This document shows positions 43,604 through 50,902 of a stretch of 50,902 nt of DNA, one piece after another. The stretch is from positions 1 through 50,902 of the forward strand of contig JAKLGH010000010.1 in assembly GCA_022710775.1 (NCBI GenBank). Direction: 5' to 3'. Numbering within the stretch: position 1 is the stretch's first letter; every line of letters starts with the position of its first letter. The DNA comes from Patescibacteria group bacterium (GTDB lineage: Bacteria; Patescibacteriota; Minisyncoccia; Minisyncoccales; UBA5738). The notes below the pieces were generated by a model, which was given only the letters and a program-made list of their open reading frames with translations, did no database searches and was not told the DNA's origin. A program made the translations under genes and the position numbers.

Positions 43604-45493
43604 ATGGCAAAAGAAATCCAAAAAATTGAACAGGCCAAAGGCCGCCCCCTGCTCCAGTGGGTCGGCAAACATCCGCTGGAAAGCATTGAATACTATCCGG
43701 CGCAGGAAAAAGAAGCCTACGGCGATTTGGCGTCAAAGGAGTTCAATAAACTTTTTTGGGGCGATAATCTGCAAGTGCTGGCCCATCTGCTCAAGGAATA
43801 TCGCGGCACGGTGGATTTGATTTACATTGACCCGCCGTTCGACAGCAAGGCTGATTATGTGAAAAAAGTGAAATTACGCGGTGAACAATTTGAGGGTCAG
43901 CAACAAAATGTTTTGGAAGAAAAGCAATATACCGATATTTGGGAGCAAGACGAATACTTGCAGTTTATGTATGAGCGCTTGATGTTGATGAAGGAGCTTC
44001 TTTCGGATAAAGGTTTTATAGTCGTTCATCTGAATGTCGAACGTTCGCATTATATTAAAACCGTGATGGACGAAGTTTTTGGGAATTTTAATTTTCGTAA
44101 CGAGATAATCGTTCGCAGGATAAGAAAAAGTTACGTGGAAGAAAAGGGTGTTTCAACCTTAAATGAAGGTGTGGATTATCTGCTTCTCTATTCTTCAAAT
44201 CCGGCTACTCGCTTCAAAGCCCCCGTAAAATTTTCTCCCAAGGAAGAAAGATGGCACGGATTTGATGCCCCGAATATTCGGCCAAATTTGACTTACGAAC
44301 TTTTTGGAAAGCTTCCGCCAGCAGGTCGTTGTTGGATGATGTCAAAAGGAGAGGCGGAAAAAATGATTAAAGATGGAAGCTTAAGGCCAAATCAGAAAAC
44401 TGGCGTGCCTGAATATAAGCTTGAAGCCACCGATTTTATAACCAGAGATACACTATGGGATGATATTACCGCTTATGCCTTTACAACGGGTTACCCCACA
44501 GAAAAGAAAGAGGATATGCTTGAAATCCTTATCCAAACATTTGCGGGAGAGGGGGGTGTTGTCGCGGACTTTTTTATTGGTTCGGGGACGACTTGCGCAG
44601 TAGCCCAAAAGCTGGGTCGCCGGTGGATTGGGTGCGACATCAATCTGGGCGCGATACAGACCACTACCAAGCGGCTCAATCAAGTAATTGAAGACCAGCG
44701 CAAGGATAAGAAAGGCGGCAAGGATTTCAAGGGTCTGTTGGCGTTCAAGGTTTTGAACGTCAATGATTATGATGTTTTCAAGAACGAGCTGGAAGCCAAG
44801 GAAATTATAATGGAGATGTATGGGGTGGAGCCGGTTAAGCGGACTTATTTTGATGGGACGCTGGATAAGAGCTTTGTTAAGGTGATGCCGCTCAACCGCG
44901 TTTTGAACAGAATGGACATTCGCACGCTCATCAAAAACATCAATGAAAAGATTGATGGTTTTACGGCTAAAGCAAAGTCAAAGTCTGGTGAGCCGGTTTA
45001 TGAGGAAGGTGTTTTAGTGATTTGTTCGGGGGTGGAGCTGGATGTTTCGGATTTCATCAAAAAAGAGAATAAGACTGGCGTTAAGATTGATGTGCGCGAT
45101 ATTCAAACCGACAAACAAAACCTTATTTTCAAGCAAAAGCCGGAGGCCAAAATTAAAGTGAAAGCGGCAGGGGGTAAATTGGAGGTTAAGGTTTTGGATT
45201 TCCATTCCCCGATTTTGATGCGCAAGCTGGAGATTGAGAACAGTAAAGTTGTTAAGAAAGAGAACCGTGCCAAGGTGGGAGATTTCCGCCAAATTATTGA
45301 CAGCGTGGCGGTTGATGTTGACTATAACGGCAAACTTTTCAATGCCGAGATTATGGATTTACCCGATAAGAAAGAGGTAATCAAGGCCGATTATTCGTGG
45401 GATTACAAAAAGAAAGGTGATTATACGGTGGCGGTCAAGGTGGTGGATGTTTTGGGCGAGGAGTATTTTGAAACTTTTAACGTAACCGCATAA
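43604..45493 (+). CDS. mod: Type III restriction-modification system DNA methyltransferase (Mod)
   Basis: 629 aa, N6-adenine/N4-cytosine methyltransferase with the DPPF catalytic motif (76-79) before the SAM-binding motif DFFIGSGTT (about 325-333), i.e. beta-class order. The N-terminal FWGDNLQVLAHLL and RYGTVDLIYIDPPF-like block (RGTVDLIYID) is characteristic of Mod. The target-recognition region lies around residues 160-290. The C-terminal 200 residues are beta-rich. The restriction subunit gene follows after 4 nt. Together they protect and cleave DNA at unmethylated sites. Intact by eye. Confidence 0.92.
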   Translation: MAKEIQKIEQAKGRPLLQWVGKHPLESIEYYPAQEKEAYGDLASKEFNKLFWGDNLQVLAHLLKEYRGTVDLIYIDPPFDSKADYVKKVKLRGEQFEGQQQNVLEEKQYTDIWEQDEYLQFMYERLMLMKELLSDKGFIVVHLNVERSHYIKTVMDEVFGNFNFRNEIIVRRIRKSYVEEKGVSTLNEGVDYLLLYSSNPATRFKAPVKFSPKEERWHGFDAPNIRPNLTYELFGKLPPAGRCWMMSKGEAEKMIKDGSLRPNQKTGVPEYKLEATDFITRDTLWDDITAYAFTTGYPTEKKEDMLEILIQTFAGEGGVVADFFIGSGTTCAVAQKLGRRWIGCDINLGAIQTTTKRLNQVIEDQRKDKKGGKDFKGLLAFKVLNVNDYDVFKNELEAKEIIMEMYGVEPVKRTYFDGTLDKSFVKVMPLNRVLNRMDIRTLIKNINEKIDGFTAKAKSKSGEPVYEEGVLVICSGVELDVSDFIKKENKTGVKIDVRDIQTDKQNLIFKQKPEAKIKVKAAGGKLEVKVLDFHSPILMRKLEIENSKVVKKENRAKVGDFRQIIDSVAVDVDYNGKLFNAEIMDLPDKKEVIKADYSWDYKKKGDYTVAVKVVDVLGEEYFETFNVTA

Positions 45494-45497
45494 TCCG

Positions 45498-48038
45498 ATG
45501 GACAGCTTATTTCTGCAACAAATCAAAAAACAAGTTGAGGAGTGGCGGGGCAAAAAGTATCAGGGAGCGGAGCCGGAAACTTTGAATATCCTGACTCACA
45601 TCAAGCGGGTCGGGTTTTTGCACGCGCCGCAGGTGGAGGCTTTGGAAACCTACATCTATCTCAAGGAAATTATTGGGAACAAGCCTTCGCTTGAGGTTTT
45701 TCGTTTATCGTTTGCGAGTGAGAAGGAATTATTGATTGGCTTGGGTATTCCAAAAAGCGAAGCGTTTGAGCTTATCGGTAATGATAAAGAGATTGAGCGG
45801 CGGTTGGCGGAGGCATTTGGCACTTCGGATTATGCCAATCAGGTTTACGCGCTAACGATGGGGTCGGGTAAGACCATACTGATGGCGGCGATGATGCTTT
45901 ATGATTTCACTTTGTCGTTTTATCATCCCAAGGACGGGCAGTTTGCCAAGAACGCTCTCGTGTTTGCACCCGATACCACGATTATTGAAAGCCTGAAAGA
46001 AATAAAGACATTTGACTATTCCAAGGTTTTGCCTAAGGAATATGCCAATATCGTCTTGAACATCAAATACCACTATCTTGAAAGCCCCGAAAGCGCTCTT
46101 GCTCCCATCGGGAATTACAATGTCATTGTTTCCAACTCGCAAAAGATAATCCTGAAAACAAGGAATGGCAACGGTAATGGCAATGCCACGAAGCGGCTTT
46201 TTGGCGATACCAACGAAATGGAGCGCCGCGAGGTTGAGAACGCCCGTTTGCAGGCAATCCGCCAGCTTTCGGGTTTGATTGTGTTCGTTGATGAGGCCCA
46301 TCATTCCTACGGCCAGACCCTTGAAGGCACTTTGAAGAAAACCCGCCAAACCATTGAATATTTACACAAGAACACGCCGCTGACGGCGGTTATTAACTTG
46401 ACCGGCACTCCGTATGTGAACAACAAGATGATTGCCGATGTGGTTTATCACTTCGGGCTAAAAGAGGGTATTGAGCGGGGCATCTTGAAGCAGGTCCATA
46501 TTTCAGATTACGGCAATGTTAAATCCCAGCAATTTGTTTCCGAGGTCGTTGATACTTTTTTGAGCGAGTATGGAACGAAAAAGCTGGAAGGAAGGTTGCC
46601 CAAGATTGCCTTTTATTCGGCCAGCATAGAGGATTTAAGGAAAGAGCTTAAGCCAAAGCTGGAAAAGGAACTTACCCAGAGAGGTATTTCGTTTGATAAA
46701 ATTCTTGAATACCACACCGAAGCCGAAGAAAGCAAAGATGAATTTTTGAAATTGGACACGGCGGAAAGCAAAAAGCAGTTCGTTTTGTTGGTGGGTAAAG
46801 GCACCGAGGGCTGGAACTGCCGGTCGTTGGTAGCGTGCGCCCTATACCGCAAGCCGCACAGCTCAATTTTCGTTTTGCAATCTTCAACCAGATGTTTGCG
46901 AAGCATCGGCGACAATTCCACGAAAGCCCGCATTTTTCTGTCGCTGGAAAATTACAAAATCCTTGACCGCGAACTGAAGAGTAATTTTTCTTCAAGTATC
47001 AGCGAGCTTAATGCGCAGGACCAGAATACCGTTGAGCATACCTTGAAAGTTGAAAAGCGCCGGACGGTCAAAGTAAAAAAGGTTTTGAAAGAAATTGTTG
47101 CCGTTCAAAACAATAAAGCGGGTCAAATTAAAGTTGATTTTTCCAAGTTCAAAAAAGAAAATTACCAGCATTATATCAACGAAGGCGGGATTTTTCTGGG
47201 CGATGGCGGGCGGGCTGGTTATGCGGAAGTGCGGGCAACAAGGAAAATCACCGAAACCAACGATTTTACTTTTTACGAAATTGCCGAAATCATCAACCGC
47301 CGAACGCATCTTTCTTGTTTTGCCATTGAGCAAATTGTTTCCGATAGCGGCAAAAACCGTACCGCGTTTGTAAAGGAAGTAAATGAATGCTCCGCCCTAT
47401 TGCCCTTTACCGTGGATGAAATCTTGAACAAGGCTTATAGCTACGAAGAGAAAACTGAAACCGTTGAAGAGATGCTTGAGCTTACCAAGCTTTACCCGTT
47501 CAAAATCAGCGTCCAGCAGGGTAAAAATAAGCTTGTTATTTATCGTGAGAATGAGGAGCGGGATGGGCGCAAGGGTCGCATCGGTTTTCATATCAACCCC
47601 TACAACTTTGACAGTGGCGATGAAAAGGACCTTTTCCGTTATTTGAGGGATGTCCTTGAGAGGCGAGAAGCCATTAAAGATGTATATTTCACCGGCGGCG
47701 TCCACGATGCCAGTCATAACGATTTCTATTTTGAGTATTGGAGCCCTGAAAAACAGCGGATTGCCCGTTACTTCCCTGATTTTCTGGTTGAAACTACAAA
47801 GGGCCGGTTCTTGGTGGTGGAAGTGAAGAGCACTGGCGAGAAGCTTGATTACGAGGCAAACAAAAAGTCGTATGGCGGAACAATAAAGACGCTGACCAAC
47901 GAGGTCTTTGCCAAAGAAGTTGGTTTCAAGGATTTTCAGGCGGCCAACAAAAACTTTGATTACCGCATTGTTTTTGACGCTTCAATCCAAAGGGAGCAGG
48001 TTAAACTTTTTGAAGAAATAGAAAAGGCAGTCCAGTAA
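45498..48038 (+). CDS. res: Type III restriction-modification system endonuclease/helicase (Res)
   Basis: 846 aa SF2 helicase with Walker A MGSGKT (121-126), motif II VDEAHHSYG (about 255), motif III-like NLTGTPYVN and motif VI region QSSTRCLRSIG. A C-terminal PD-(D/E)xK nuclease has FPDFLVETTKGR and VVEVKSTGE. Typical Res proteins reach about 970 aa, so this is a compact version. It requires Mod to recognise DNA, and cleaves after ATP-driven translocation or sliding. Directly downstream of mod (4-nt gap). Confidence 0.92.
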   Translation: MDSLFLQQIKKQVEEWRGKKYQGAEPETLNILTHIKRVGFLHAPQVEALETYIYLKEIIGNKPSLEVFRLSFASEKELLIGLGIPKSEAFELIGNDKEIERRLAEAFGTSDYANQVYALTMGSGKTILMAAMMLYDFTLSFYHPKDGQFAKNALVFAPDTTIIESLKEIKTFDYSKVLPKEYANIVLNIKYHYLESPESALAPIGNYNVIVSNSQKIILKTRNGNGNGNATKRLFGDTNEMERREVENARLQAIRQLSGLIVFVDEAHHSYGQTLEGTLKKTRQTIEYLHKNTPLTAVINLTGTPYVNNKMIADVVYHFGLKEGIERGILKQVHISDYGNVKSQQFVSEVVDTFLSEYGTKKLEGRLPKIAFYSASIEDLRKELKPKLEKELTQRGISFDKILEYHTEAEESKDEFLKLDTAESKKQFVLLVGKGTEGWNCRSLVACALYRKPHSSIFVLQSSTRCLRSIGDNSTKARIFLSLENYKILDRELKSNFSSSISELNAQDQNTVEHTLKVEKRRTVKVKKVLKEIVAVQNNKAGQIKVDFSKFKKENYQHYINEGGIFLGDGGRAGYAEVRATRKITETNDFTFYEIAEIINRRTHLSCFAIEQIVSDSGKNRTAFVKEVNECSALLPFTVDEILNKAYSYEEKTETVEEMLELTKLYPFKISVQQGKNKLVIYRENEERDGRKGRIGFHINPYNFDSGDEKDLFRYLRDVLERREAIKDVYFTGGVHDASHNDFYFEYWSPEKQRIARYFPDFLVETTKGRFLVVEVKSTGEKLDYEANKKSYGGTIKTLTNEVFAKEVGFKDFQAANKNFDYRIVFDASIQREQVKLFEEIEKAVQ

Positions 48039-48041
48039 AAT

Positions 48042-48548
48042 ATGGATAATCTACTTATTTTTGGAGGATTATTGGTTTTAGCGGTTTTGGCGTTTAAGTT
48101 TTTCCAAAAACCGCAGGATGATGAAGGTGGCGATTTTGTTAAAAAAGGATACCAATACAAGAAAAAAGACTTTTTCCTGACGCGGGCCGAACACCAGTGT
48201 TATGACGCGCTGATTGAAGCGGCAGGCAAGGATTACTATATATTTCCGCAAGCCCACCTGTCTTCAATAGTGGATAATAAGGTTATCGGCCAGAACTGGA
48301 ACGCCGCCTTCCGCCATATAAATGGCAAATCGGTTGATTTTGTTTTATGCGATAAAAGCTATATCGCACCCAGATTGGCGATTGAGTTAGATGACCGCAC
48401 GCACCAGCGCATGGACCGGCTGGCGCGGGACGGCGAAGTTGAGCGTATTCTTAACCAAGCCGGACTTCCCTTATTGCGATTGGATAATCGCGGCAATTTC
48501 AATCCCACTGAAATTAGTCAGCAAATTAAAGCTTATCTTGCAAAGTAA
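48042..48548 (+). CDS. DUF2726 nuclease-like protein with N-terminal membrane helix
   Basis: 168 aa. One hydrophobic helix (4-21) precedes a DUF2726 domain: LTRAEHQCYDAL, SVDFVLCDKS, AIELDDRTHQR and AGLPLLRLD. The Asp in SVDF and the Glu-Leu-Asp in AIELDD fit a PD-(D/E)xK-like active site. It lies 3 nt after res, so it is part of the restriction operon. A membrane-tethered nuclease in this position might act on incoming DNA; that role is inference. Confidence 0.8.
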   Translation: MDNLLIFGGLLVLAVLAFKFFQKPQDDEGGDFVKKGYQYKKKDFFLTRAEHQCYDALIEAAGKDYYIFPQAHLSSIVDNKVIGQNWNAAFRHINGKSVDFVLCDKSYIAPRLAIELDDRTHQRMDRLARDGEVERILNQAGLPLLRLDNRGNFNPTEISQQIKAYLAK

Positions 48549-48575
48549 TGAATTGCAGGTTAAGAGAACACACAT

Positions 48576-48785
48576 ATGTTTAGGTCGGTTAATGGGTTAA
48601 CCCCAAAAGAAAACAAAATACTTGGAAGTTTAACCAAGGCTGTTTTTATGATTATCGGGTTGGCTATTTCTTATGCAATCTGGGGGAATAATATATTATT
48701 TGAGCCTTTATTTTATTTAATTGAAGGTGTCAGTTATGGCCTTGCTTGGATTTTATTGAGAGTTACTGGTATTTGGAAATATTGA
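48576..48785 (+). CDS. Small two-helix membrane protein
   Basis: 69 aa with two hydrophobic segments (about 21-36 and 43-64) separated by a short polar loop, ending GIWKY. The gene is between the DUF2726 gene (27 nt) and the UDG-like gene (2 nt). No homologue recognised. It could be a membrane effector or accessory protein of the island. Confidence 0.5.
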   Translation: MFRSVNGLTPKENKILGSLTKAVFMIIGLAISYAIWGNNILFEPLFYLIEGVSYGLAWILLRVTGIWKY

Positions 48786-48787
48786 TT

Positions 48788-49324
48788 ATGGACGCAAAAC
48801 TTGAAGCTTTGAAGGAATTAAACCAAAGATTAACGCCACCCAGAGAATTGGGCGGCGTGTTTTTGCCGGTTGGGGTAAAGGAACAATTTGAGATAATGTT
48901 TGTTGCAGAGATGCCTTCTATGAATGAGCCAAAGAACGAAGAGGGCAAGGCGCTAAATTTTAATTTTGGCATAACCGCAAAGGACAGGTTGCTGATAAAT
49001 ATGATGAAAAAGTATGGGGTTGCCGGTAGCTATGTAACCGACATAGTGAAAGAAAGAGATATTCCAAGAAAACCGACAAAGGAGGAAATCCGTAAATGGT
49101 TACCGTTCTTGCTTGAGGAAGTAAGGATAATCCAGCCTCGCGCCATTATTGTTTTGGGCAAGAGGACTTACGAAGCCAGTTTTAGGCCATATGTTGAACC
49201 GGCTATACCCAGCGAGATAAAAATTGATTACGTGTTCCATTATAGCCAGCAGGGCGCAAAGACAAATCTGGAAGTAGAGCAAAGGTTTAGTGAGGTAGTG
49301 CTGAAAATAAAAAATAGTGTATAG
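48788..49324 (+). CDS. Uracil-DNA-glycosylase-superfamily-like protein
   Basis: 178 aa. FVAEMPS fills the place of the UDG motif A (GEAPG), LPFLLEEVRIIQPRAIIVLGKRTYEA matches the conserved middle of family 4/5 UDGs, and VFHYSQQG takes the place of motif B (HPS). Because both catalytic motifs are altered, it may have another base-excision specificity or only bind DNA. A longer frame from 48746 overlaps the small membrane gene by 40 nt; the ATG at 48788 is preferred. End of the restriction operon before the ncRNA. Confidence 0.65.
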   Translation: MDAKLEALKELNQRLTPPRELGGVFLPVGVKEQFEIMFVAEMPSMNEPKNEEGKALNFNFGITAKDRLLINMMKKYGVAGSYVTDIVKERDIPRKPTKEEIRKWLPFLLEEVRIIQPRAIIVLGKRTYEASFRPYVEPAIPSEIKIDYVFHYSQQGAKTNLEVEQRFSEVVLKIKNSV

Positions 49325-49325
49325 C

Positions 49326-49341
49326 GGGGTGGGGTAAATTA
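49326..49341 (+). repeat. Left direct repeat of the ncRNA cassette
   Basis: GGGTGGGGTAAATTA here matches GGGTGGGGCAAATTA at 50576-50590 with one difference. A third related copy (GGGTGGGGTAAATCA, minus strand) is at the end of the primase gene, near 38301-38316. Confidence 0.6.
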
Positions 49342-49368
49342 GACGGAATGAGCGAAATGTGTTAAAAT
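49340..49368 (+). promoter_or_regulatory. Promoter of the structured RNA
   Basis: TAGACG (49340-49345; four of six consensus positions), 17 nt, TAAAAT (49363-49368). The predicted transcript start, near 49376, coincides with the closing stem of the RNA. Confidence 0.55.
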
Positions 49369-49375
49369 AAAAATG

Positions 49376-49571
49376 TAAGAGCTTAAAAATTTAATCCTGT
49401 GCGCAGGGTAATGCGCCGGATAATTCTGCCCGAAAGGGAAAGGCAAGCGGGGAAATCTGCCGTGAGCCGAATGGATTATCCCGACTAACTGCAAAGGCGG
49501 TTGGGAGATTTCACTAATCTAAGAGGTATAAATCTTAGGGTATTCGTGAAAGCTCTTAGCCGCTTTTTCTT
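49376..49571 (+). ncRNA. Structured noncoding RNA, possibly HEARO/omega-RNA-like
   Basis: About 195 nt without a coding frame. Closing stem TAAGAGCTT (49376-49384) with AAGCTCTTA (49550-49558), then a T-run at 49564. Inside: GCGCA/TGCGC (49401-49405, 49412-49416); GGATAAT/ATTATCC (49418-49424, 49475-49481) enclosing CCC-GAAA-GGG and the arm AAGGCAAGCGGGGAAA (49440-49455); AACTGC/GCGGTT; CTAAGA/TCTTAG (49519-49524, 49533-49538); and TTTCAC/GTGAAA (49509-49514, 49546-49551). AATCC (49393-49397) competes for GGATAAT, which suggests a pseudoknot or switch. By memory only, the AAGGCAAGCGGGGAAA arm recalls HEARO (IscB omega) RNAs, but no IscB gene is near. Not a tRNA, tmRNA, RNase P or SRP RNA that I recognise. 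Confidence 0.62.
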
Positions 49572-49615
49572 ACAAATGTCGACGGATACTCTATGGTCTA
49601 TGCTCCTACACAAAT

Positions 49616-49879
49616 ATGGAAGACGTAAAAAGAAAAATGTTCTTTGTTGAATGTGATGAATGTGGGTTTGCCGTTGGGTTTGACTACCCTAATGAAACAT
49701 TCTTTTTCTGCAAGGAACACAAATTTGGCGTTAATGTTCCGAACGATGACCTCGGTATAAATCACATATGCAAAGGGTGCGACAAGCGAATGGAGCGTTA
49801 TGATTTATATGAAGAAGACAATGTGTGCCCGATTTGTAATGGAATGATGACTATGTGCTATCAATTCGTGAAGGATTAG
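49616..49879 (+). CDS. Small zinc-ribbon protein
   Basis: 87 aa with CDEC, a single FC, CKGC and CPIC pairs, enough for two zinc sites. The rest is acidic. No homologue recognised. It follows the structured RNA by about 45 nt and is inside the direct-repeat cassette. It may bind RNA or DNA, or be a partner of the RNA; this is inference. Confidence 0.6.
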   Translation: MEDVKRKMFFVECDECGFAVGFDYPNETFFFCKEHKFGVNVPNDDLGINHICKGCDKRMERYDLYEEDNVCPICNGMMTMCYQFVKD

Positions 49880-49923
49880 CGGCGAAATGTTAGCGGTAAA
49901 TAAATCTAACCAAATAAAACATT

Positions 49924-50544
49924 ATGAACATCTATTTCGTCCGCCACGGACAAACAAAAATGAACGAATTTCAATTAAGCCAGAGCGAGCACGAGCCGCT
50001 TTCTGAAACTGGCTTAAAACAGGCGCAAATGATTGCCCAGCGGGTTAAAACCTTGCCGGTTGAGATAATTCACGCCAGTCCGATGAAACGGGCTTCCCAG
50101 GCCGCGGAAATTATAAGAGAGGCGATTGATAAAGAGATTATCTATTCCGACTTAATAAAAGAACATCGGCGGCCTTCGGTTATGATTGGCCACGCCAATG
50201 AGGAGGAGTTTGTAAAAAAGATAAATTACGAGTGTAACCAGCATCAAAATGATATAAGCTGGCATTATTCCGATGAGGAGAACTTTTTGGAATATAAGAC
50301 GCGGGCAAGGAAAGCGTTGGAATACCTGTCAGCGTTGCCGCAAAAGAACATCTTGGTGGTTTCCCACGGCAACTTCATCAAAATGCTTGTTTTAACTATG
50401 GCTCTCGGCGATTTAATCCAGCCAGCGGTCCTTTATTCATTTGCCAATAAGTTCCGTTTGCGCAATACCGGCCTGACGTATTGTAAGAAAACCGCTACGG
50501 GCTGGAGCATCGAAGCTTTCAATGATCATCAGCACTTAGGCTAA
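49924..50544 (+). CDS. Histidine phosphatase family protein (phosphoglycerate mutase-like)
   Basis: 206 aa. It opens with the catalytic FVRHGQTKMNE, then HASPMKRASQAAEI and a second His block VVSHGNFIKM. It belongs to the broad cofactor-independent-of-context branch 1 phosphatases (CobC/PhoE/SixA-like); the substrate cannot be told. It lies 45 nt after the zinc-ribbon gene, near the right end of the element. The gene is intact, with no sign of decay. Confidence 0.85.
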   Translation: MNIYFVRHGQTKMNEFQLSQSEHEPLSETGLKQAQMIAQRVKTLPVEIIHASPMKRASQAAEIIREAIDKEIIYSDLIKEHRRPSVMIGHANEEEFVKKINYECNQHQNDISWHYSDEENFLEYKTRARKALEYLSALPQKNILVVSHGNFIKMLVLTMALGDLIQPAVLYSFANKFRLRNTGLTYCKKTATGWSIEAFNDHQHLG

Positions 50545-50575
50545 TCAAACTATTGCGAAGAAATAGTGAATTGTA

Positions 50576-50590
50576 GGGTGGGGCAAATTA
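50576..50590 (+). repeat. Right direct repeat of the ncRNA cassette
   Basis: GGGTGGGGCAAATTA, one base different from the copy at 49326. The two copies bracket the RNA, the zinc-ribbon gene and the phosphatase gene. Confidence 0.6.
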
Positions 50591-50676
50591 TCACTTTTCT
50601 ACATACTCAAGAGCGGGAATGTATACGGTGGCATCGTTTCTTCTCTCAAAAATAGTTCGAACGTCCTCTACTGTGG
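50591..50676 (-). pseudogene. Displaced C-terminal segment of the serine recombinase
   Basis: Reading the minus strand into this segment from the right repeat gives EWG-ATVEDVR to PALEYVEK and a TGA (50593-50591). The frame through the 12-bp repeat is the same as in the recombinase at the left end. Joining the two ends, as in a circle, would extend residue 532 of the recombinase by these 28 codons. As it stands the segment is cut off from its gene and has no start of its own, apart from a chance frame continuing into the flank. Confidence 0.75.
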
Positions 50677-50688
50677 CACCCCATTCGT
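50677..50688. repeat. Right attachment core (attR)
   Basis: CACCCCATTCGT, identical to the copy at the tRNA-His end. Confidence 0.8.
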
Positions 50689-50788
50689 CGCTTGCGTTCC
50701 TCAGGGTCTTTGACCTGCCAAAGTTTGAAGCTAAATTTAACATGCCCCCTGCGTGAAATCCGAACCGATAGTTGACCCCGTAATTGTT

Positions 50789-50902
50789 TTAGGCAAACAC
50801 ATTTTGCACTCTCAACGCCTCATTAGGAGTGAGTCCGTTAAGAGCGCAATGCTCCAAATTATTGTAGCATGCGTTCCAAGTTTTCACCCTGGATCTCAAT
50901 TC
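50789..50902 (-). CDS. Transposase C-terminus, IS481/rve type, partial
   Basis: The last 37 codons of a leftward gene are visible: VKTWNACYNNLEHCALNGLT and then PNEALRVQNVFA before the stop at 50791-50789. 'ALNGLTPNEALR' is typical of the end of DDE transposases of the IS481/IS3 integrase-core group. Between it and the element end (50689-50788) the GTGAAATCCGAACCG stretch near 50754 looks like a terminal inverted repeat. It belongs to the flanking chromosome rather than the element. The 5' part lies outside the window. Confidence 0.68.
   Translation of the reverse strand, partial: ELRSRVKTWNACYNNLEHCALNGLTPNEALRVQNVFA

Follow-up and report, generated by a model that had tools for sequence, protein, structure and literature searches.

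In the stretch of DNA analysed here (the window, 50,902 nucleotides), a structured noncoding RNA lies between a 23-bp repeated site with its adjoining promoter and a probable operon for a double zinc-ribbon protein and a histidine phosphatase (Table 1). Directly upstream (43604-48548) come the two genes of a type III restriction-modification pair, N6_N4_Mtase and ResIII, and one for a DUF2726 protein, and after them a gene for a small UDG-family protein (48746-49324); together they form a defence-like island. On the other side of the unit, the minus strand at 50789-50902 encodes a C-terminal protein fragment, ending in NNLEHCALNGLTPNEALRVQNVFA, that adjoins the degenerate copy of the 23-bp site and within which the contig ends; by eye it was likened to an integrase-core transposase, and Pfam gave no match to its 37 residues.

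Table 1. Positions of the features of the RNA-gene unit in the window.
Feature	Position	Strand	Basis
23-bp site TAGTGTATAGCGGGGTGGGGTAA (consensus TAGTGAGTAGCGGGGTGGGGTAA), resembling an insertion-sequence end; left boundary of RNA-gene unit	49315-49337	+	motif scan
Promoter-like site: -35 TAGACG, 17-nt spacer, TG-extended -10 TAAAAT	49340-49368	+	sigma-70-like motif
Structured leader RNA, from the predicted start through the U-tract	49375-49568	+	fold z -3.77 and homologues
P1 hairpin (49401-49405:49412-49416)	49401-49416	+	fold, homologue comparison
Three-way junction, P2 (49417-49426 with 49473-49480 and 49482-49483, bulge 49481)	49417-49483	+	covariation
P3 hairpin CCC-GAAA-GGG	49429-49438	+	fold, alignments
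P4 hairpin (49442-49444:49466-49468 and 49447-49450:49460-49463)	49442-49468	+	covariation
P4 loop GGAAAUCUG, 9 nt	49451-49459	+	invariant in close members except divergent L113
Pseudoknot 5' strand GAAAUCU in P4 loop, pairs with 49506-49512	49452-49458	+	covariation
Candidate antiterminator hairpin CUAACUGC (49485-49492):GCGGUUGG (49497-49504)	49485-49504	+	pairing potential
Intrinsic terminator, stem 49497-49507:49553-49563 (extended by 49508-49513 and A-tract), U-tract 49564-49568	49494-49568	+	fold, alignments
Pseudoknot 3' strand AGAUUUC, overlaps terminator base	49506-49512	+	covariation
87-aa double zinc-ribbon protein gene	49616-49879	+	homologue also 3' of RNA in L038
Histidine phosphatase (His_Phos_1), second gene of probable operon	49924-50544	+	domain match
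Degenerate second 23-bp copy (ATAGTGAATTGTAGGGTGGGGCAAA), right boundary of unit	50563-50587	+	read from sequence; under scan threshold

Folded alone, the segment 49376-49571 gave a minimum free energy of -67.5 kcal/mol (z = -3.77), which none of 200 dinucleotide shuffles equalled; the reverse strand, in the same test, gave z = -1.83. The segment holds no ORF of at least 60 amino acids, and attenuation by a leader peptide was rejected, as no small ORF is conserved. The sigma-70-like site places the predicted transcription start at 49375. An earlier note, made from the sequence alone, had described this segment as a noncoding RNA with a promoter, several helices, a competing pair suggestive of a pseudoknot and a U-tract end, and in all these respects our analysis agrees with it: compensatory changes preserve the fold in the homologues, and one competing pairing would suit a pseudoknot. 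We have hardly any doubt that a real RNA lies here and that it is both structured and conserved.

The note had also raised the possibility of an unknown RNA class and had proposed a search of Rfam, including the HEARO model. That search returned no family at the gathering score, and at E<=10 it gave only chance-level matches, far under the family cut-offs and none of them at the RNA, so that tRNA, tmRNA, HEARO/omega and all other Rfam families are without a match there. The riboswitch covariance models of Rfam 15 matched neither the RNA of the window nor its homologues, and no counterpart was found in the open-licence literature searched. As judged from its sequence and predicted fold, the RNA fits no known family tested, while its structure is conserved in 13 other genomes.

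Homologues of the RNA

When 59 related genomes were searched at the DNA level, a single divergent copy came to light in a genome of the same genus; it lies in another genomic context, is 76% identical over the core and folds alike (z = -4.10, with none of 200 shuffles as good). A covariance model built from the window sequence and this copy alone then detected members, at E = 3e-21 and 3.5e-20, in two further families of the order, and models of the 3' module and of nine sequences widened the search to the class, the phylum and a second class. In total, covariance searches of about 1,200 related genomes, inferred to be Patescibacteria, gave 13 close copies besides that of the window, and these 14 close members are spread over 13 families; so rare and scattered an occurrence is what would be expected of a mobile trait. 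A divergent extra member, L044, has the same junction. Three distant relatives (L017, L018 and L019) have only the 3' module in common with the RNA and carry other 5' domains; that in L017 (1500-1640, minus strand) lies 33 nt ahead of a gene for an Obg GTPase, and that in L019 precedes a gene for a zeta-toxin-like protein.

Phage and plasmid collections gave no match to the RNA, nor did a strict pattern scan of viral contigs, and the same scan of genome contigs returned only an already known neighbour. A number of candidates were rejected: L055, on a viral contig, is a chance match within phage coding sequence; the weak model matches L024-L030, L045-L047, L059-L061 and L114 were judged to be due to chance or too distant, and were excluded from the counts; and the minus-strand R2 matches that overlap true ones are a product of the palindromic terminator. 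More distant hairpins of the form GCGATTGGGAGATCTCTTC, preceded by a AGGAGAGAG to which the terminator arm is complementary, were seen in L044 and L047 (genomes G556 and G567) and in L043, L045 and L046, and possibly represent a wider attenuator superfamily. Genome G192 contains, in addition, a second repeated element of about 180 bp, in three copies that are 90-91% identical (L015 2325-2515, L019 2605-2785 and L093); in two places it lies 3' of the gene that follows the RNA, and it contains a promoter-like TATACT and matches no Rfam family.

The conserved junction and competing pairings

The core common to all close members is a three-way junction in which P2 closes the hairpins P3 and P4. 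MAFFT alignments (A2 and A3) misregistered P2, and a hand-curated alignment was used instead. In the nine-sequence alignment, whose curation was guided by the structure and is biased in its favour (single bulged bases were omitted in a few places to hold the register), 98.2% of cells are paired and eight pairs show double changes, a result reached by none of 500 shuffles; when the partners were slid by 1-3 columns, pairing fell to 38-49%. The model built from two sequences is independent of the sequences found later and so supports the conserved fold despite the curation. Across fifteen sequences the junction is 96.3% paired, and 16 of its 20 pairs are changed on both sides (0/500 shuffles). 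Within it, P2 is 93.3% paired, with nine of ten pairs changed on both sides (0/500 shuffles), and P4b is 98.3% paired, with 15 double-change cells (0/500 shuffles). A 5' hairpin, P1 in the window, is present in most homologues and absent from L015 and L040.

Two further details of the earlier description fared less well. One of its two GNRA loops, that of P3, is present in the window but varies among the homologues (UUCG, GCGA, UUUUA and others), and the second is not there, the 9-nt P4 loop, invariant among close members, not being of GNRA type. The 9-bp closing stem (49376-49384 with 49550-49558) can be found in the window sequence, yet it is not conserved; it beats shuffles in only two of the 11 members tested, the window (9 bp, P = 0.007) and L016 (9 bp, P = 0.02, where the match is A/U-rich and differs from that of the window), and it competes with the terminator.

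On the 3' side of the junction the segment CGACUAAC is followed by the terminator, GCGGUUGGGAGAUUUC...CUCUUAGCCGC-UUUUU, which is 99.4% paired and kept in all fifteen aligned sequences, with a nearly invariant hairpin. Complementarity continues past the U-tract, where the outer helix CGACUAA:UUGGUCG stands out against shuffles (2/1000), though not when the members are permuted (268/2000). Such an extension, the length of the palindrome and the mobile setting would all be in keeping with a hairpin that serves mainly as a DNA palindrome, at a site of recombination or replication, the RNA fold being secondary. We regard this as improbable, since the upstream junction covaries with G-U pairs, as an RNA does, and the promoter is conserved, whereas an inverted repeat needs neither.

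The base of the terminator is also the partner of the P4 loop. The pairing GAAAUCU:AGAUUUC is 98.1% paired over fifteen sequences and invariant in 13 of them. In L044 (GAGGUCU:AGAUCUC) all seven pairs are kept, two of them in altered form, and in L113 (GAGACCU:AGGACCC) five of seven are kept, two by double change, and two are mismatched. There are three compensatory cells across these two divergent members to set against the two mismatches in L113, and the sequence comparison supports the pseudoknot in part. The candidate antiterminator hairpin, CUAACUGC:GCGGUUGG, can be formed in nearly all members. Its 3' strand doubles as a terminator arm, which is why no covariation is seen within the close set; in the distant relative L017 the hairpin is changed on both sides (UCAA:UUGA) while mismatching that relative's own terminator.

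Downstream genes and the mobile setting

An extended -10-like promoter lies 5' of the RNA in the 11 members analysed, mostly of the form TGCTATAAT with a start at GTAG or GTAA, and the predicted product is 165-211 nt long. The gene that follows is on the same strand, its start codon lying 38-85 nt from the terminator in ten members and about 105 nt in L113.

What follows is, in nearly every case, the same kind of gene. In 11 of the 14 close members (L002, L015, L016, L037, L039, L040, L041, L058, L111, L112 and L113) the downstream unit encodes an HD_4 protein resembling small alarmone hydrolases, one small ORF being interposed in L016 and L111, where the HD_4 gene is the second ORF. In the window and L038 the next gene encodes the double zinc ribbon, the two proteins being 38% identical to each other; over 85 residues, that of the window shares 60% identity with the C-terminal part of the HD_4 protein of L112, which has the same RNA upstream, and is therefore a free-standing form of that domain. 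Thirteen of the 14 close members accordingly precede an HD_4 or HD_4-linked zinc-ribbon gene, always on the same strand, and the lone exception, L042, is followed by small ORFs of no known family. This linkage makes the stand-alone guide RNA of the earlier note doubtful.

A representative HD_4 protein matches small alarmone hydrolases in the PDB (4yf1, 7qoe, 7qoc and 3nr1) as well as SpoT/Rel hydrolase domains, and thus resembles the MESH1/SpoT HD group by sequence, whereas several of the downstream proteins differ from that group in bearing an additional zinc ribbon. An orphan bacterial small alarmone hydrolase with promiscuous activity has been described (PMC9765508). The RNA was not found upstream of the close hydrolase homologues L063-L067; the leader is hence optional, and the gene can do without it.

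The unit also has the appearance of a mobile one. A scan for TAGTGAGTAGCGGGGTGGGGTAA with up to three mismatches in 21 genomes gave six matches in five genomes and none in the other 16, and the reversed control gave none; all six matches lie on the contig of the RNA, within about 2.5 kb of it and in its orientation. In the window the site abuts the promoter and the degenerate copy lies 3' of the phosphatase gene. The motif looks like an insertion-sequence end or cassette boundary, and the RNA with its genes has the look of a passenger unit flanked by such sites. Outside the window, copies were seen at L095 2893, 3765 and 4545 and in L100 and L101, and in genome G472 it is repeated at gene-length spacing, with an NYN-domain gene within one interval. 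On the minus strand, a stretch reading VEDVRTIFER(R/Q)N..YIPxL recurs to the right of the site, after unrelated sequence, in the window, L095, L100 and L096; it may be non-coding, a conserved part of the insertion sequence at its end.

Such surroundings bring to mind the transposon guide RNAs. The earlier note likened AAGGCAAGCGGGGAAA to HEARO/omega RNA, with which the RNA shares a similar size, a short GGCAAG..GGGGAAA-like string and the proximity of mobile-element ends, and an insertion-sequence-end-like site lies beside the promoter. A HEARO/omega-type or bridge-type guide is nevertheless very improbable indeed: RF02033 has no match at E<=10; neither IscB (as the note had already remarked) nor TnpB nor an IS110 protein occurs among the neighbouring proteins examined, a part of the neighbouring ORFs comprising HD_4, zinc-ribbon, phosphatase, UDG and type III restriction proteins; there is no variable guide, the loop being constant among close members; and a fixed, conserved terminator forms the 3' end, with HD_4 or zinc-ribbon genes after it. 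The note's own argument against an omega RNA, which relied on the closing stem, thus fails in its premise, that stem not being conserved, while its conclusion holds on these other grounds.

Proposed mode of action

The presence of HD_4 or zinc-ribbon genes downstream in 13 of the 14 close members, on the same strand, points to a leader acting in cis. We find, before a specific gene family, a conserved structured 5' leader with an intrinsic terminator between the two, and attenuation leaders have just this order, a promoter, then a junction that covaries, a terminator for which a second partner competes, and a gene family that stays constant. We think it reasonably likely that the RNA acts in cis, as the riboswitch-like leader by which a mobile gene unit is controlled through transcription attenuation, and by this working mode it would belong with the attenuator leaders. 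RNA polymerase would start at 49375 and make the 5' hairpin and the three-way junction first. In one fold, the loop GAAAUCU would pair with AGAUUUC, beside the hairpin CUAAC..:GGUUGG, so that the 5' arm of the terminator would be occupied and transcription would run on into the gene; in the other, the GCGGUUGGGAG arm would pair with CUCUUAGCCGC and transcription would stop at the U-tract, giving an RNA of about 195 nt. A small molecule or protein bound at the junction would set the choice, and the gene switched would be that of the hydrolase-like HD_4 protein or of its zinc-ribbon partner. Counting against attenuation, the terminator is so strong that most transcripts could simply end there, and in L017 (Obg), L018 and L019 (zeta-toxin-like) the 3' module stands before other genes.

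The main rival is a stand-alone small RNA with its own promoter and terminator, which would travel with the HD_4 or zinc-ribbon gene and act elsewhere in trans, for example by base pairing or by binding a protein through the exposed GGAAAUCUG loop. The promoter found in each member examined, the very strong, conserved terminator and the loop of nine nucleotides invariant in close members would all suit such an RNA, and the insertion-sequence-end-like sites near RNA and genes alike would be enough by themselves to keep them together. Co-mobility alone, however, requires no fixed order or spacing, whereas the RNA is always 5' of the gene, on the same strand and at a short distance, and at the terminator base the loop finds a partner that does not vary; we consider action in trans possible but rather doubtful.

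In type III toxin-antitoxin systems the order is promoter, RNA, terminator and gene, and the same order here, together with the type III restriction pair nearby in the window and the zeta-toxin-like gene after one distant relative, could suggest a toxin-antitoxin-like or defence-linked RNA that binds or restrains the protein encoded past the terminator. This is unlikely: the RNA, unlike ToxI, has no tandem repeats (no direct repeat of at least 16 nt occurs within 48400-50902), it has a single junction rather than repeated pseudoknots, and the downstream proteins are SpoT-like hydrolases or zinc ribbons, with no ToxN-like nuclease.

To return to the attenuation leader, a natural candidate for its ligand would be a nucleotide handled by the hydrolase, and an alarmone is attractive given the gene. 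We set aside (p)ppGpp as the obvious choice, because the presence of a RelA_SpoT synthetase domain (in six of 11 RNA-bearing genomes, against five of 14 others, and not in the genome of the window) is uncorrelated with the RNA. By regulated biology the nearest known RNAs are the ppGpp and PRPP riboswitches of the ykkC group. With riboswitch and attenuation leaders in general the RNA shares a 5' position with a promoter, a multi-helix junction, a pseudoknot-like pairing over the terminator and an adjacent gene; it differs in matching no Rfam riboswitch and in preceding hydrolase-like HD_4 or zinc-ribbon genes. In the open-licence literature searched we found no description of a leader RNA for small alarmone hydrolase genes and none of native riboswitches in Patescibacteria, the one match treating riboswitches as tools only. 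More tentatively, the RNA might represent a new class of riboswitch, restricted in the genomes tested to ultrasmall bacteria of the Patescibacteria-like kind. Its junction would then bind an alarmone, or some other nucleotide substrate, and so turn on a small alarmone hydrolase that is mobile.

A leader that covaries and stands in front of genes for small alarmone hydrolases would offer a direct handle on nucleotide-signal sensing in Patescibacteria. Many of the genomes searched, including that of the window, are without a RelA/SpoT synthetase domain, and the RNA makes the signal of their hydrolases a testable question. The leader would account for a mobile hydrolase cassette staying regulated in new hosts; if the RNA is such a riboswitch, hydrolase-zinc ribbon cassettes would bring their own sensor when they move between genomes.
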